A stretch of 64,000 nucleotides of DNA. Origin: an uncultured Rubrobacteraceae bacterium (GTDB lineage Bacteria > Actinomycetota > Rubrobacteria > Rubrobacterales > Rubrobacteraceae). Below are positions 7,065 to 15,221 of this stretch, one piece after another. Both the position numbers and the translations under genes were made by a program. The number at the start of each line of letters is the position of its first letter. Position 1 is the first letter of the stretch. The stretch is taken from contig CADCVF010000065.1 in assembly GCA_902806095.1 (NCBI GenBank), forward strand, positions 1 to 64,000. The letters are read 5' to 3'. A model generated the notes under the pieces. It searched no databases. It was not told the origin of the DNA and saw only the letters and a program-made list of their open reading frames with translations.

Positions 7065-7970
7065 TCAAAGTGTGGGTTTCGCTGGCTGTGTCTTACCGTA
7101 GTAGTCCTTGATCTCGTAGGCGCGCTTCTCCAGTTTGAGCGCGTCCGCGCGGGCCTTCCCCAGCGCTTCCGGGCCGAGGCGCTCGTCTTTGACCAGGTCC
7201 AAGCCCTCTTTCTCCTCTTCTTCTGGTCCCCGCCAGCCCACTCGAATATCGCCAACGCCTGGTGCGTAGTACTTGAGCTGGTAGGCGCCTGGCTTGTTCC
7301 GCTCAAACTCCTCAATCACGAGAACGTCCTCGTAGCAATCCACGGGCACACAGGTCTTCTGGCCCACCTTGTATACCCTCCCCCGGTCGATCCAGTTTAT
7401 GGGGGGCGGAGCATATCCTTGGGCGTAGCCGGGGGTGCCAGGCCGCGGCTCTGCCCTCATGGCGATCCCCGCTGTCGCGCCTTTTGAGCCGGCTAGCCAA
7501 CCAGGAGCCTTGTCGAACTCACCCTCCTCGTACTCCTCGGGGTACTCACCCATGTGCCAGACGTTGCCGTCTTTGTCCTGGGCAAAGAAGCCGAGCTCCG
7601 ACTCCACCAGCTCGCCTTCGTTGTAGTCCCTCTCCCAGACGAGAATGCTATTGACGCCGTTTATCTCTTTGGTAAGGTCGGTAACGGTTGTCACCACGCG
7701 GCGGGTAATCCGCTCGCCATCGTCTATGGCGGAGCCCTCGAAGACGGAATGTGCCCCCGGCTCCAGAGGGAACCACAAGTTGTCTACCCTGGTCGAATTG
7801 TCGAAGTTGGTGCGGTCGAAGTCCTTCGCGCTCACAGTGCTCAAATGCCCAGAGTGGTTCTGGTCGGAGGCCTCGTCCGTGCCCGATCCCGACCTGGCTC
7901 CAGTGCAAGCCACCGCCGAGAGCACTACCAACAAAGAGCTAAAAGCGGCGGCGAAGTGTAGGTTGCGCAT
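7065..7970 (-). CDS. Secreted lipoprotein of unknown function
   Basis: Signal peptide with lipobox LSAVAC; last gene of the minus-strand RND operon. Confidence 0.75.
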   Translation of the reverse strand: MRNLHFAAAFSSLLVVLSAVACTGARSGSGTDEASDQNHSGHLSTVSAKDFDRTNFDNSTRVDNLWFPLEPGAHSVFEGSAIDDGERITRRVVTTVTDLTKEINGVNSILVWERDYNEGELVESELGFFAQDKDGNVWHMGEYPEEYEEGEFDKAPGWLAGSKGATAGIAMRAEPRPGTPGYAQGYAPPPINWIDRGRVYKVGQKTCVPVDCYEDVLVIEEFERNKPGAYQLKYYAPGVGDIRVGWRGPEEEEKEGLDLVKDERLGPEALGKARADALKLEKRAYEIKDYYGKTQPAKPTL

Positions 7971-7988
7971 TTCAGACCCTATGTACGC

Positions 7989-10900
7989 TCACACTGTCCT
8001 CGCACTCCTGCTCTTCCCGAAGCGGAGGTACAGAGACGGCAGGACGAACAGGTTCAAAAGCGTCGAGGTGACGAGCCCGCCCAGAATGACGATCGCCATC
8101 GGGTGCTCGATCTCATGGCCGGCAACGCTGCCAGCAACGGCCAGCGGCACGAGCGCCAGCCCTGTAGCCCCTGCGGTCATCAGGATCGGCGCGAGCCGCT
8201 CCTTCGCCCCGCGCAAGACGAGCGCAGGCCCGAACTCCTCGCCCTCTTCGCGCTCGAGGTGCTGGAAGTGGCTGATCATCAGGATCCCGTTTCGCGCCGC
8301 GATGCCGAACACGGTCAGGAACCCGATCAGCGAGCCGAGCGACAGGATGCCGTCGCCCATCCACACCGCGAGCACCCCGCCCACCAGCGCCATCGGCAAG
8401 GTAAGGAAGAGCAGGAGAGCCAGACGCATACTCCCGAAGGAAGCCTGCAGGAGGAACAGGATCGCGAGCGCTGCGGCGCCCCCGTAGATCAGCAGGCTAT
8501 TCTGCGCGGCGGCCAGCTCGCTGGACTCTCCGAGCACCTCCATGTGGTACTCAGGCGGCAACTCGACCCCCGCAATGCGATCCTCGACGGCGCCCACGGC
8601 GGAGCCGAGATCTCGTCCCTCCACGTTGGCGCCGACGTCGATCCGGCGCGACTGATCCACGCGCTCTATGGCGTTGGGGGTCGGCGCGAGGCGAACGTCC
8701 GCCACCTGCTCCAGTGTAATCTGCTCACCTCCGGGCGTGTCGATCGGAAGCTGGCGCAAGTCGCTCACGCTGTTGCGGGTCTCGGGCGTGCTCCACACGT
8801 GCACGTCGTACGCCTTGCCGCCCCTGAAGATGTCGCCGACTTCCTCGCTCGCGACCAGTGTGGAGGCCTGCCGACGCACGTCGCCCGGCTTGAGGCCGTG
8901 GGCTTGCGCCGCTGCGAGGTCCACCTCAACCTCCGTTTGCGGTATGTCCTCCGCGAGGTCGGCGTGCGCGTCGATGAGGCCGGGTATGCCCTGCATCTCG
9001 CTTGAGATCTCGTCTGCTTTAGTGTAAAGCACATCGAGTTCGGGGCCATAGATGCGCACGACGATGGCTTCGCTCGTGCCCGTAAGCACCTCCCTGACCC
9101 TTTCTCTAAGGTATGTCTGGACATCCCTGTAGAGCCCCGGGTAGGCATCGACCGTCTTCGACACGTTGGCCAGAGCCTTGTCATAGTCGACCGCGGGATT
9201 GATGCTGACCCAGTTCTCGCCGAAATCCACGCCGTAGGGCTCGTCGGACTGGAAAGCCTGCCCTATGTGCGACCCGCAGTTGCGCACGCCAGGGATCTCC
9301 TGTAGGTCCTTACAGGCCCGAACCGAGATCCGAAACTCTTCCGGTTGCGAGGTGCCTGGCTTCGCCAACCAGTGCATGAGGAAGTCCCTCTCCTTGAAAT
9401 TCGGAAGCAGGATCGTCCCGAGCGTTGGCGCCACCACGGCGCCGGCCAGCATGACGACCGCCACGGTAACGATCGCGGGACTCGGGGTGCGGACCACACG
9501 CGCGAGAACGGCGCCGTAGCCGCGCTTGAGCACCCGTAGCAGGGGGGATTCCTGGTGCCTGTGCCCTCTCGACAACATGATCAGGCACAACGCCGGCGTG
9601 ACGGTCAAAGCCACGATCATCGACACGAGTACCGCAATCCCGTACGAGAGCACGAGCGGCTTGAAGAAAGCACCGGAGAGGCCTTCCAGGAAAAAGACCG
9701 GCACGACCGCGATGACGTTGATCAGCGTCGCGTAGGTGATCGCCGTGCGCACCTCCACCGATGCTTCGAGCACTATGGCGATCATCGACCTGCCGGTACC
9801 CTCGCTCCGTTCTTGGCGCAATCGTCGCACGACGTTCTCCACGTCGATGATCGCGTCGTCCACGACGACACCGATGGCGACGACGAGCCCAGCCAGGATC
9901 ATCACGTTGATAACGGCCCCCAACGCTTGGAGCACGAGAATAGCCGCGAGCAGAGACAGCGGAATCGCGATCAGGCTGATAAACGCGGTGCGCCACTCGA
10001 AGAGGAAGGCGGCCAGGATCAAGATCACGAGCAAAACGCCGAGCAGCAGCGCCCTCGTGAGGTTGCCGAACGCCTGCTCGATGAAGGTAGCAGGCCTGAA
10101 GATTGTCGTGTCCAGCTCCATGCCGGGAAGGCCAGGGCGCATGTCGTCGACCGTCTCTTCGATGCCCCGAGTCACCTCGAGCGTATTGGCGTTCGGGAAC
10201 TTCTGAACGATCAGCATCAGGCCGCGACCATCGTCGATGACGGCGTCACCGATCAGCGGCTGGTGACCATAGCCCACGCTCGCCACGTCCTCGAGGCGCA
10301 AGTTCGTACCGTCTCTTCCCTCGAGCGGTATCTTGGCGAGGTCGTCAGGCCCGACGATAGGCAACACGTTGCGCACGTCGAGCCTCTGGCCGTCTGCCTG
10401 GACGAAACCGCCGGTCCCGATCACCGCGCCTTCTGAGTAGCGCAAAAGCCCGGCATCCAGGGAATCCGCCGTTTGGTCCATCACCTGCTCCAGGGAGACA
10501 CCGTTTTCGGCTAGCTTCCTCGGGTCCACGTACACCTGCTGCTGTTGGAGTTGCTCACCGTAGATCATCACGTTCGCCACGCCGTCCACGCGCAGCAACT
10601 CCTGCCTGATCTTCCAGTAGGCGACCAGAGACATCTCTCTCATGTTCAGCTGCTCCGACGTGATCCCGATCTTCATGACCCGGGCTGTCGACGACAGCGG
10701 AGGCATCATGAAAGGCGGACTCGCCCAGGTCGGCAAAGTGGGTGCCGCCGCCGACAGGCGCTCCTGCACCAACTGCCGCGACTTGTACGGGTCGGAGTCC
10801 CTGCTGAAGATGAGCTGGATCTGCGAGAGGTCGGCGACCGACTTGGAGCGCATCTCCTCGAGCCCAGGGATCCCGTTTAGCTGGTCCTCCAGCGGGACGG

Positions 10901-11099
10901 TGATCAGCTCTTCGACCTGCTCCGAAGAGTTACCGATGGCGATGGTCTGGATCTCCACCTGGGGCGGAGCGAATTCGGGGAAGACGTCTACGTCCGCGTT
11001 ACGAGTCTCGCCGATGCCGAAGACTATCAGCGCCGCCGCGGCGAAGATTACTAGCCACCGGAACCGTAAGCTCGATCCAACGATCCAACGCATCAGCAA
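7989..11099 (-). CDS. RND efflux permease, CusA/CzcA-like
   Basis: 1036 aa; VDVFPEFAPPQVEIQT, VPLEDQLNGIPGLEEMRSKS, GLVVAIGVVVDDAIIDVENVVRRL; two TM blocks with large periplasmic loops. Confidence 0.9.
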   Translation of the reverse strand: MLMRWIVGSSLRFRWLVIFAAAALIVFGIGETRNADVDVFPEFAPPQVEIQTIAIGNSSEQVEELITVPLEDQLNGIPGLEEMRSKSVADLSQIQLIFSRDSDPYKSRQLVQERLSAAAPTLPTWASPPFMMPPLSSTARVMKIGITSEQLNMREMSLVAYWKIRQELLRVDGVANVMIYGEQLQQQQVYVDPRKLAENGVSLEQVMDQTADSLDAGLLRYSEGAVIGTGGFVQADGQRLDVRNVLPIVGPDDLAKIPLEGRDGTNLRLEDVASVGYGHQPLIGDAVIDDGRGLMLIVQKFPNANTLEVTRGIEETVDDMRPGLPGMELDTTIFRPATFIEQAFGNLTRALLLGVLLVILILAAFLFEWRTAFISLIAIPLSLLAAILVLQALGAVINVMILAGLVVAIGVVVDDAIIDVENVVRRLRQERSEGTGRSMIAIVLEASVEVRTAITYATLINVIAVVPVFFLEGLSGAFFKPLVLSYGIAVLVSMIVALTVTPALCLIMLSRGHRHQESPLLRVLKRGYGAVLARVVRTPSPAIVTVAVVMLAGAVVAPTLGTILLPNFKERDFLMHWLAKPGTSQPEEFRISVRACKDLQEIPGVRNCGSHIGQAFQSDEPYGVDFGENWVSINPAVDYDKALANVSKTVDAYPGLYRDVQTYLRERVREVLTGTSEAIVVRIYGPELDVLYTKADEISSEMQGIPGLIDAHADLAEDIPQTEVEVDLAAAQAHGLKPGDVRRQASTLVASEEVGDIFRGGKAYDVHVWSTPETRNSVSDLRQLPIDTPGGEQITLEQVADVRLAPTPNAIERVDQSRRIDVGANVEGRDLGSAVGAVEDRIAGVELPPEYHMEVLGESSELAAAQNSLLIYGGAAALAILFLLQASFGSMRLALLLFLTLPMALVGGVLAVWMGDGILSLGSLIGFLTVFGIAARNGILMISHFQHLEREEGEEFGPALVLRGAKERLAPILMTAGATGLALVPLAVAGSVAGHEIEHPMAIVILGGLVTSTLLNLFVLPSLYLRFGKSRSARTV

Positions 11100-11109
11100 T
11101 CCCTACCTT

Positions 11110-11586
11110 TCAATGTGCGACCTCGAACTCGGTGCCGTACACCTCGGCGGCCCCGGTCGTCACGACCTCCGTACCGGCGGGTGGGCCGTCGGAGAGCATG
11201 ACGCTATCACCGTCCACGTGGTCGATAACGATGTTCTGCCGCACATAAGTCCGCGGCTCAGGAGACGTGTAAGCCCACGTCTTGCCATGGGAGTCGTAGA
11301 TGACGGCGCTATAGGGTATGACCATCCCTTGGCCGTTCTGACGAACCGGGGCCGTCTGGATGCCGGCTCGCTCCACCCCTTCGGCGTCGACTATTACGCG
11401 GTTGATGTCCGTTCCCTTGATCGGCTCGAGCTCGGCGGGATCGTGATGGCTCGCCGTCTCGTAGTCGTAGCCCGAGCTTGCCTCGCCGCACGCGGAGAGC
11501 GAAGCTACGCCGGCGATCAGCACTAGACCCGCGCAGGCGGCACGCAGCTGCCGCCTGCACTTGAGGTTGATTCCTAACCCTTTCAT
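11110..11586 (-). CDS. Short lipoprotein resembling the distal part of an RND membrane-fusion/adaptor protein
   Basis: Lipobox SLSAC; VPVRQNGQGMVIPYSAVIYDSHGKTWAYTSPEPRTYVRQNIVIDHVDGDSVMLSDGPPAGTEVVTTGAAEVYGTEFEVAH; ATG overlaps the upstream stop by one base (TAATG). Confidence 0.75.
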   Translation of the reverse strand: MKGLGINLKCRRQLRAACAGLVLIAGVASLSACGEASSGYDYETASHHDPAELEPIKGTDINRVIVDAEGVERAGIQTAPVRQNGQGMVIPYSAVIYDSHGKTWAYTSPEPRTYVRQNIVIDHVDGDSVMLSDGPPAGTEVVTTGAAEVYGTEFEVAH

Positions 11587-14500
11587 TACTCGCCGCGCTT
11601 TCCCTGAGAACCGCCTTCGCCCTCCTGGTAAGCCGCCGCGTTGGCCCGCCCGGGTGCTCTCTCGAACTGGCGTGAGCGCGCGGGCTGGGGAGCGACCTCT
11701 CGGTCGCCAGCCACCGGCTCGGTCGCGGCACCGTGGGGCCCGGGCGTTTCGGCTAGCGGTTCGGGCTCCGCGCCGCCGCCGAAGCTCAGGTACAGGACCG
11801 GTAGCACGAAGAGGGCGAGTAACGTGGAGGTGAGCAAACCGCCCAGCATCACGATCGCCATCGGGTTGACGATCTCCAGACCGGCGACGTTGCCCAGGAT
11901 CACGAACGGCAACACCACTGCAGCCGTCGCCACCGCAACGGTCAACGTCGGCGCGAACCTCTCCTGTGCCCCGCGCCGGATGAGCTCGGCGCCGAAGGCC
12001 TCGTCGAGCCGGAGTCGCTGTAAGCGATCGATCAGCATGACGCCGTTGCGGGCGGCGATGCCAAGCAGCGCCAGGAACGCGATCAGCGCGCCGAGCGAGA
12101 GCGTAGCGCCGTCGATGAGCGCCGCCAACACTCCGCCGACGAGAGCCACCGGCAGGGTGAGGAAGGCCAGCCCCGCCAGGCGCCAGCTCCTGAAAGCGGC
12201 CTGGAAGAGCAAGAAGATGGTGATCAAGGCGGCGATGCTGAAGCCCACAACCCGCCACAGGTTGATCTCCTGGGCCGTCGTGGTCTGCCCGAGCACCTCG
12301 GCGTGGTATTCCAGTGGGAACTGGCTGTCCGCGAGGCGCTCTTCGACGTCGGTGGCCACGGCGTCGAGGCTGCGGCCGGTGATGTTGGCTTCGACGTCAA
12401 CGTAGCGCTGGGCGGCGTCACGCTTGATGACGGCCGGCGAGGGCTTGATGCTCACGTCGGCCACCTGTTCCAGTCGTACATGACCGCCATCCGGCGTGTC
12501 GATCAGCACGTTGCGAACGTTCTCCACGCTCTCGCGCACCTTGGGCACGCCCTTCACGACGACCTCGAACACCTTCTGCTCACCGAAGATGTTGCCGACC
12601 ACGACACCCTGCAACAACATGGCCGACGCCCGGCGGACGTCGCCCGGCTTGATTCCATACGGTTCCGCCCTTGCGAGGTCCGTCTCGATCGCAAGGACCG
12701 GCTCCTCGGGCACAGCCTCGACCTGCGGGTCGAGAACGCCGTCGACCCCGCCCACGATGTCTCGCACGTCGTCCGCCTCGCTGCGCAGGGTGTCGAGGCC
12801 CTGTCCGTAGACGCGCACCACGAGGGGCTTGTCCGCGCCCGTAAGGACGTCGAGGTTGTTGCCTGAACCCGGCGCTTCCGAGTCAGTGAGCGTCCCGACG
12901 TCGTTAACCTCCTGCTGTGACGAGGTCACGACCTCGCGGTCGACCGTTTCATCGAGGCCGCCCACGACGTCCTCGATCTCTGCCACCGTCGCGTCATAGT
13001 CGGCGTCGGAGCCGATCTTGACCGAGAGGGTGCTAGAGTTGACGTCGACGATCTGATCGCCCGTCAGGGCACGTCCGACGTGGCCGCCAACGTCCTCGAC
13101 CCCCGGAATCGCCCCCAGCTCGCGGCTTAGCTGTGCCGTCATACCGCTCATCTTCGGCTCCGAGGTACCGGGCGGGCCCTGGAGGTTGACCAGCATGTCG
13201 TTGTCCTTGAACGAAGGAACGAGCGAAGTGTTCAGGAACGGCAGCGCGGCCAGGCCGACCACCACGCAGGCGGCGGCAGCGATGAGCATCGCCCGCGGTG
13301 CACGTACGAGTCGCGAAAGGATGCCGTCGTAGAGCGGGTTCAGCAGCCGCAGGATCGGGGACTCGCGGCGTACCCGCGATCCCCTGGAGTACGCCAACAT
13401 GCTCAACGCCGGCGCGACCGTCAGGGCGACGACCATCGACGCCAGCACAGCGAGCACGTAGGACAGTGCGAGCGGCTCGAAGAACGTGCCCGGCCGACCT
13501 TCCATGACTACGACCGGCACGATCACGAGCAGCGCGATGAAAGCGGCATATGTGGCGGGCCTTCGTACCTCGGACAAGGCCTCGAGCACAACACCTGCGG
13601 TCGACCTGTCATCTTCGTCGGCCTGGTGATGCTCGCCCAGGTGCCGAGCGACGTTGTGGACGCCTATGACGGCGTCGTCGACGATTATAGCGATGGCCAC
13701 GGCGAGCCCCGCGAATGCGATCGGGTTGAACGTCTCACCGCGGAAATAGAGCACGAGCGCCGCCACCATCAGAGACAGCGGGATCGTTACGAGGCTGATC
13801 AGCGTGGCGCGCAACGAGAACAGGAAGGCCGCGAGGACGAGTGCCAGGAGAACGCTGGCGATGATGATCGCGAGCCTTAGATTGCCGATCGCGTCCGTAA
13901 TGTAGCTCGCCGGCTGGAAGACGTCAGCGTCGAACTTCATGCCGGAGAGGCCGGGTTGCAGGTCACCTAGTGCGTCTTCGACCGCGCTGGTCACCTCTAC
14001 GGTGTCGGCGCCGGGGAACTTCTCCACGACCAGCAGTAGGCGGTCGTCGTTGCCGCCGACGACGGCGTCACCGATCAACGGCTGGTGCTCCTCCACCACG
14101 TTGGCCACATCGGCGACACGCAGCTGGCCGCCGGTGTCCTCGACCGTCACCTTGCCAAGGTCTTCCGGCGTACCGAAGTTCTCGAAAACGTGGCGGACCT
14201 GCAGCCTCTGATTGGGCGTTTCGATGAAACCGCCGGTACCGGGCGTCGAGGCCTCGAGGAAAGTCAGCGGCGATACCAACTGCGCGTTGCCCGTCGTCTC
14301 GACGACCTGGTTTAGCGTGACCCCTTGAGCCTGAAGCTGCGCCGGGTCGACCTGCACCTGAAGCTGCTGGTCGCGCAGGCCCCAGATGGAAACGTTAGAT
14401 ACGCCAGGCACGCCCGACAGGCGCGGCCTGATCACCCAGTGGGAGAGTACGCCAGCCTCGATCGTCGACAGCTTGTTCGGGTCGATACCGATCATCATGA

Positions 14501-14918
14501 TCCGGCTCGCCGACGACATAGGATTGATCATCGTGGGTGGTTGCGATACCTGCGGCAACGCATGCGCCTGTATGAGCCGCTCTTGCACCAACTGCCGTGC
14601 CTGGTAGAGGTCGGTTCCGGGTTTGAACACCAGCACGACATCTGAAAGCCCAGCAACCGACTCCGAGCGGATCACCTCGACGCCCTCTACGCCGTTCAGG
14701 AGGTCTGCTTCCAGCGGAACGGTGATCAGCTGTTCGACTTCATTGGCGGAGAGCCCCAGGGCCTCGGTCTGGACTTCCACGTAAGGCGGCGTGAACTCGG
14801 GAAGCACGTCTACGGGCGCACTGCGGAGCTGTACGAACCCTACGACCAACACGCCCACCGCGATGGCGATGAGCAACATCCAGAACCGCAGGCTCGCACC
14901 GATAATCGAACGAATCAT
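11586..14918 (-). CDS. RND efflux permease, CusA/CzcA-like (second copy)
   Basis: 1110 aa; VDVLPEFTPPYVEVQTEALGLSANEVEQLITVPLEADLLNGVEGVEVIRSESVAGLS; FAGLAVAIAIIVDDAVIGVHNVARHL. Confidence 0.9.
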   Translation of the reverse strand: MIRSIIGASLRFWMLLIAIAVGVLVVGFVQLRSAPVDVLPEFTPPYVEVQTEALGLSANEVEQLITVPLEADLLNGVEGVEVIRSESVAGLSDVVLVFKPGTDLYQARQLVQERLIQAHALPQVSQPPTMINPMSSASRIMMIGIDPNKLSTIEAGVLSHWVIRPRLSGVPGVSNVSIWGLRDQQLQVQVDPAQLQAQGVTLNQVVETTGNAQLVSPLTFLEASTPGTGGFIETPNQRLQVRHVFENFGTPEDLGKVTVEDTGGQLRVADVANVVEEHQPLIGDAVVGGNDDRLLLVVEKFPGADTVEVTSAVEDALGDLQPGLSGMKFDADVFQPASYITDAIGNLRLAIIIASVLLALVLAAFLFSLRATLISLVTIPLSLMVAALVLYFRGETFNPIAFAGLAVAIAIIVDDAVIGVHNVARHLGEHHQADEDDRSTAGVVLEALSEVRRPATYAAFIALLVIVPVVVMEGRPGTFFEPLALSYVLAVLASMVVALTVAPALSMLAYSRGSRVRRESPILRLLNPLYDGILSRLVRAPRAMLIAAAACVVVGLAALPFLNTSLVPSFKDNDMLVNLQGPPGTSEPKMSGMTAQLSRELGAIPGVEDVGGHVGRALTGDQIVDVNSSTLSVKIGSDADYDATVAEIEDVVGGLDETVDREVVTSSQQEVNDVGTLTDSEAPGSGNNLDVLTGADKPLVVRVYGQGLDTLRSEADDVRDIVGGVDGVLDPQVEAVPEEPVLAIETDLARAEPYGIKPGDVRRASAMLLQGVVVGNIFGEQKVFEVVVKGVPKVRESVENVRNVLIDTPDGGHVRLEQVADVSIKPSPAVIKRDAAQRYVDVEANITGRSLDAVATDVEERLADSQFPLEYHAEVLGQTTTAQEINLWRVVGFSIAALITIFLLFQAAFRSWRLAGLAFLTLPVALVGGVLAALIDGATLSLGALIAFLALLGIAARNGVMLIDRLQRLRLDEAFGAELIRRGAQERFAPTLTVAVATAAVVLPFVILGNVAGLEIVNPMAIVMLGGLLTSTLLALFVLPVLYLSFGGGAEPEPLAETPGPHGAATEPVAGDREVAPQPARSRQFERAPGRANAAAYQEGEGGSQGKRGE

Positions 14919-15221
14919 TGCTGATAACCTCCCTGCCCAGGCGCTCTCGAGATGTCACTCCACACTACAGAACCGCGGTACCAAGCAACCCCCATGTCAT
15001 CTTCTTCCTGTGGGTATCTAACTGGTGCGTTTGTTCGGAGCGTTCCTGAGGAGATCCGGTGCTGCCCTAAGCATTCCACAGAGTTTGTTGATGCCTTTGT
15101 TGCTGTCAAGCGCACGACGTCCACTCAGACCTTCCTCTGCATTCAATTGTCCCAACAAAACTCAATATACAGAGGTACATACGCGCTTGCAACCCTCTGC
15201 GGATGAACAATCAGGATTTTT

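Follow-up and report, generated by a model that had tools for sequence, protein, structure and literature searches.

RND (resistance-nodulation-division) pumps are well known, and the systems closest to the locus described here have been studied in some detail. In MdtABC-TolC and MuxABC-OpmB two paralogous RND permeases are encoded in one operon, and the active form is the heterotrimer MdtB2C, in which the roles are divided between the subunits (PMC4338810, PMC12802153). BesA, the adaptor of BesABC from Borrelia burgdorferi, has no α-hairpin; lipoyl, β-barrel and membrane-proximal (MP) domains are kept, and the TolC partner is BesC (PMC3807786). In Gram-positive bacteria the membrane fusion proteins were reported to retain the α-hairpin; a review found it puzzling that the hairpin is conserved there and named the function of these adaptors as a gap in knowledge (PMC4338810). 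We examined a locus of four minus-strand genes in a stretch of 64,000 nucleotides (the window), i.e. positions 1 to 64,000 of contig CADCVF010000065.1 in assembly GCA_902806095.1 of an uncultured Rubrobacteraceae bacterium. It encodes an RND permease (RND-A), a lipoprotein of 158 aa (P0001), a second RND permease (RND-B) and a predicted lipoprotein of 301 aa (P0004). The lipoprotein between the pumps is an RND adaptor of which only the MP domain is left.

Comparison with the described systems shows shared parts and clear differences. Like MdtABC-TolC and MuxABC-OpmB the locus has two paralogous permeases in one operon; those systems, however, need a full adaptor and TolC, and their pumps are about 22-24% identical to those of the window. 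Like BesA, the window adaptor lacks a hairpin, yet BesA serves one pump and TolC, whereas the window adaptor is reduced to the MP domain and has no outer-membrane factor (OMF). CusCBA and ZneCAB are the nearest solved relatives of the pumps and have the adaptor MP fold and the docking domains in common with the locus, which differs from them by two pumps, by the absence of OMF, hairpin and Met triad and by a score below the TIGR00914 cut-off. Single-pump relatives from Methylomonas, Phycisphaerae, Sphingomonas and Hymenobacter belong to the same pump family and carry the adaptor MP motif. They branch outside RND-A and RND-B and differ in having one pump, a hairpin adaptor and, in the clearest examples, a neighbouring TolC-family gene. 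YknWXYZ of B. subtilis also has an adaptor in a monoderm, but it is an ABC transporter.

The small lipoprotein (11110..11586, minus strand) has the lipobox LSAC at C33, a cysteine shared by at least 90% of the 65 homologues compared. Searches of Pfam and PDB with the single sequence returned nothing useful. TIGR01730 matched with 15.3 bits, below its curated cut-off of 94.9 bits, and over model positions 244-313 of 322 only. The C-termini of full-length adaptors from Sphingomonas, Methylomonas and Hymenobacter matched the lipoprotein. BLASTP against the 399-aa adaptor of locus L123 (L denotes a locus, G a genome, with G000 for the host, and C a host contig) gave two collinear blocks. Residues 18-80 aligned with 8-65, and residues 81-154 with 322-395 at 41% identity (8e-17). 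Thus, about 256 residues, comprising β-barrel, lipoyl domain and hairpin, are missing near residue 80. A profile of the 65 homologues matched in the PDB the MP regions of TriA/TriB, CusB, MexJ and SilB. The AlphaFold (AF2) model was confident across residues 51-150 (11137..11436; pLDDT about 97-98), which form the MP fold, and its best 19 Foldseek matches were all RND adaptors, including CusB, SilB, ZneB, AcrA and MexA. An alignment across full, β-barrel-only and MP-only adaptors also supported the MP identity. Hence, of the domains of an RND adaptor the lipoprotein has the MP domain and none of β-barrel, lipoyl domain and α-hairpin, and it is a homologue of the former. The original prediction, in which it resembled only the distal part of CusB/CzcB-type adaptors and left no room for an α-hairpin, was borne out by BLASTP, profile and fold alike. 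In the relative G060 (L019) two small MP-only lipoproteins are encoded (7240-7695 and 10942-11553), one ahead of each pump, which suggests specialised adaptor positions comparable to TriA/TriB.

The original prediction had seen no OMF gene in the window. The host assembly (3.83 Mb, 98.6% complete; the window is contig C65) extends this to the genome: it contains no OMF (PF02321), no Omp85 (PF01103) and no full RND adaptor (TIGR01730, RND_mfp), the sole match to the latter being a piece of 34 positions on C84. A hidden OMF or full adaptor outside the window, which would have spoken against the original prediction, was rejected on these searches, and the host does not encode the OMF of a tripartite pump. 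In a small RecA tree the host grouped with relatives of its genus and family among Actinomycetota. Because OMF and Omp85 are absent and RecA is placed there, the host is most likely monoderm. The genome also encodes another large RND protein, its third (G000:C24:171191-174589; locus L020 8177-11623), an open frame of 1148 aa preceded by a 157-aa ORF; it is only about 26-28% identical to either window pump.

Is the arrangement peculiar to this genome? A sample of 397 genomes across the phylum contained 14 with the small lipoprotein, which was located between two pumps in every locus looked at in that survey. RND-B was then used to scan 84,980 species, and the 80 best loci were kept for comparison, with mechanical gene calls. 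The order RND-A/adaptor/RND-B was found in 62 of the 80, the remainder being mostly contig ends or permuted. The two surveys together argue that the arrangement is not due to chance. Actinobacterial carriers were, among others, Arthrobacter, Catellatospora, Kribbella, Pseudonocardia and Streptomyces; further carriers among the 80 loci included Chloroflexota, Trueperaceae, Nitrospirota, Gemmatimonadota, KSB1 and Bradyrhizobium. RND members of the HME family are reportedly missing from Streptomyces coelicolor (PMC3924187), which agrees with sporadic carriage. No description of an MP-only adaptor or of paired RND pumps in Actinobacteria was found in the open-licence literature, an absence that is weak evidence. 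In permuted loci of diderms (RND-B, X, adaptor, RND-A) X is a conserved exported protein of 222-228 aa (L103 10147-10815, L107 7529-8197, L109 10165-10851) with no Pfam match in the one member scanned. A further set recurs near paired pumps: a MacB-like ABC transporter (L050, L056), a membrane protein with a peptidoglycan-binding domain and a conserved exported protein whose motif reads GTEEFGL...EKVEALI.KCM.E.GFEY. It was seen at L050 11257-16606, L056 11376-15956 and L077 12498-15302, and also in L060, L087, L089 and L091.

The adaptor alignment revealed a graded series. Hairpin-bearing adaptors belong to single-pump systems. Adaptors with β-barrel and MP domain, and no hairpin, occur in paired systems of Rokubacteria, NC10, Variovorax, Nitrospiraceae, Ensifer, Mesorhizobium and Chloroflexi metagenome-assembled genomes (MAGs); the remaining paired systems have MP-only adaptors. 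Every hairpin-less locus whose flank suffices to tell has a second pump. Contig-end cases aside, only L119, L122 and L123 are without one, and all three adaptors bear the hairpin; a clear TolC-family gene adjoins the pumps of L122 and L123, and L119 has a weak match only. On the RND-B tree the three adaptor classes required 4 changes compared to 13.4 with shuffled labels. MP-only adaptors are also found in diderms, i.e. in Bradyrhizobium and in MAGs of Nitrospirota, Gemmatimonadota and KSB1, and the forms with MP domain and β-barrel are mostly in diderms. Therefore, the loss of the hairpin goes with the pairing of pumps and not with a single membrane. The idea of an RND architecture adapted to one membrane, as originally proposed, fits the monoderm host but does not explain this distribution, and a strict monoderm-only reading was rejected. 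The whole genomes of tested carriers from Arthrobacter, Catellatospora, Anaerolineae, Ktedonobacteraceae, Trueperaceae, Pseudonocardia and Streptomyces were searched for OEP as well and gave no match. Some diderm carriers have another outer-membrane barrel next to the pair: Alginate_exp in L103 (14891-16537) and L105 (14891-16561), Porin_5 in L060 (11090-12301) and L112 (3145-4215). These barrels occupy the place expected for TolC. In Mesorhizobium (L099) a TolC-family ORF (13817-15211) follows the paired pumps downstream, at a distance of about 3.7 kb.

The pumps themselves, RND-A (11586..14918, minus strand, 1110 aa) and RND-B (7989..11093, minus strand, about 1034 aa), match PF00873 along the whole length with 757 bits (E 4e-227) and 596 bits (E 2e-178), respectively; the Pfam gathering score is 28 bits. 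Gene order and coordinates agreed with those initially read from the open frames, including the overlap TAATG, in which the RND-A stop TAA (11588-11586) shares bases with the lipoprotein start ATG (11586-11584). One start was corrected. For RND-B the ATG at 11093 is more likely than the TTG at 11099 (frame 7989-11099), because a sequence resembling a ribosome-binding site, AAAGGTAGGG, precedes it and because the homologue in L015 has the ATG and no TTG at this position. In a FastTree of 166 pumps RND-A and RND-B formed one clade each, with the single pumps that use hairpin adaptors outside both; one Ensifer RND-B row was placed without support. Most simply, then, the two are paralogues which would have arisen by one (tandem) duplication.

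Since the duplication the proton relay seems to have had two fates. We scored D407, D408, K940, R971 and T978 (AcrB numbering), and local alignments at the RND-A positions were checked by eye. RND-B has D-D-R-R-T in 86 of 86 sequences, identical to the single-pump relatives. In the RND-A lineage the relay is eroded: of 73 sequences 39 still have D407, and 27 have the full set of four charged positions. The tree requires 8 changes for D407 and 12 for the full set. The window copy reads D-D-R-R-V, whereas the congeneric RND-A of G006, 74% identical to it, reads N-D-S-M-V. RND-A evolves faster overall, with a median identity of 45% compared to 60% in RND-B, and this is unevenly distributed. The conservation ratio A/B was 1.21 for docking part DN, 0.99 for porter part PN and nearly equal for docking part DC, but 0.57-0.59 for the transmembrane (TM) segments and 0.65 for porter part PC, using what we take to be the AcrB domain boundaries. 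By the same presumed boundaries both docking domains, DN with 96 aa and DC with 89 aa, are present in both pumps. Within close pairs that lack D407 the ω of RND-A was 0.11-0.28, i.e. the protein is under purifying selection. Because selection keeps the docking and PN surfaces while the proton core erodes, the best explanation for RND-A is a role as partner subunit, and the one-sided relay loss lends indirect support to a hetero-assembly.

The fourth gene encodes the predicted lipoprotein P0004 (7065..7970, minus strand, 301 aa), and in many relatives a homologue of it immediately follows RND-B. The model was confident and all-β except for one C-terminal helix; a hairpin donated by P0004 was therefore rejected. 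The modelled fold seems to resemble YmcC-like, DUF1849 and LolA-type proteins, with the LolA matches weaker. Against 3fzx the E-value was 5e-6 (TM 0.40/0.53), and DUF3108_like was detected in 3 of 29 homologues. From the modelled fold and from its position P0004 may bind a hydrophobic ligand. In L016, a relative of the same family, two consecutive P0004-like copies (12840-13748 and 13863-14576) are located downstream of RND-B.

How might these parts work together? We consider it moderately probable that the products of the locus make up a bipartite RND exporter which works independently of an OMF and in which RND-A and RND-B form an obligate hetero-oligomer, presumably a heterotrimer. RND-B would carry out proton coupling and RND-A would mainly provide docking and PN surfaces. 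The lipid-anchored MP domains would crown the pump with a low collar, stabilising it and possibly gating its exit, and no tunnel would be built. The substrate would be released on the outer side of the cytoplasmic membrane, possibly to the LolA-like lipoprotein, which would receive or present hydrophobic substrate there. The wider claim of an undescribed, widespread RND class, with one coupled and one relay-decaying permease and an MP collar, which in monoderms would need no TolC tunnel and in some diderms would use porin-type outer-membrane proteins, we regard as evenly balanced. Several points weigh against the proposed hetero-oligomer and its generality. The window RND-A has all four charged relay positions intact, with T978 to V as the only change, and could thus couple protons alone. 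MdtB and MdtC pair, yet both keep the proton relay. The mirror-tree correlation of A and B (rho 0.64) would be seen with any co-inherited pair. The Foldseek E-values of the small lipoprotein were modest, 0.007 at best, as the MP domain is small, and the role of P0004 rests on fold and position. Finally, the 80 loci were chosen by RND-B similarity, and the association of pairing with hairpin loss was therefore assessed within this neighbourhood only; Arthrobacter is over-represented among them, and several are MAG contigs.

Other explanations were considered. The pumps could form two independent homotrimers which are encoded in one operon, share the MP-only adaptor and differ in substrate, with RND-A merely the faster-evolving one. 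Operons with two pumps are common, some RND-A copies such as that of the window keep the four charged residues, and G060 has one small lipoprotein ahead of each pump; we consider this unlikely, but to be taken seriously. The repeated loss of charged relay residues in RND-A, under purifying selection and with retention in paired loci, speaks against it: once D407, R940 or R971 is gone, a homotrimer would not be expected to work by the known proton mechanism. It is very doubtful that RND-A is instead a non-transporting regulator or scaffold on an RND-B homotrimer, outside the trimer. This would agree with docking and PN being conserved about as in RND-B or more, and TM and PC not; yet RND-A has full RND length and layout with both docking domains, as expected for a member of the trimer. 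That the small lipoprotein is a functionless, decayed adaptor fragment is hardly credible in spite of the loss of three of four adaptor domains. Its length and motif are kept across phyla, its ω is 0.05-0.32 and its place between the pumps is fixed, and a pseudogene was rejected on these grounds.

A heavy-metal exporter of the CusA/CzcA type which has merely shed its OMF in a monoderm host is rather improbable as well. ZneA and CusA are the best solved relatives of RND-A, and TIGR00914 is the best NCBIfam match. However, RND-A (594 bits) and RND-B (466 bits) both remained below the curated cut-off of 701.45 bits, and the Met triad of CusA, M573/M623/M672, is absent, as are most Met pairs. RND-A has N/S/D and RND-B H/F/E at these sites, the latter residues being conserved in 84, 76 and 85 of 86 sequences; they may bind a divalent metal or another ligand. 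Because the triad is missing and TIGR00914 is under its cut-off, copper or silver is an unlikely substrate, and a CusA-type role was rejected. In addition, a partner of LolA-like fold points to a hydrophobic ligand, and MP-only adaptors occur in diderms too.

What appears to be new is the combination of an MP-only adaptor, obligate pairing and a relay-eroded partner. Evolution has isolated the MP domain, so that what this domain does to the pump becomes accessible to experiment apart from tunnel-building. The series from hairpin adaptor via MP plus β-barrel to MP only shows a route by which a tripartite pump may be dismantled. Lastly, an RND-A that loses its relay and yet is under selection constitutes a natural experiment on whether proton coupling is required of all protomers in an RND trimer, a point that MdtB2C had raised.

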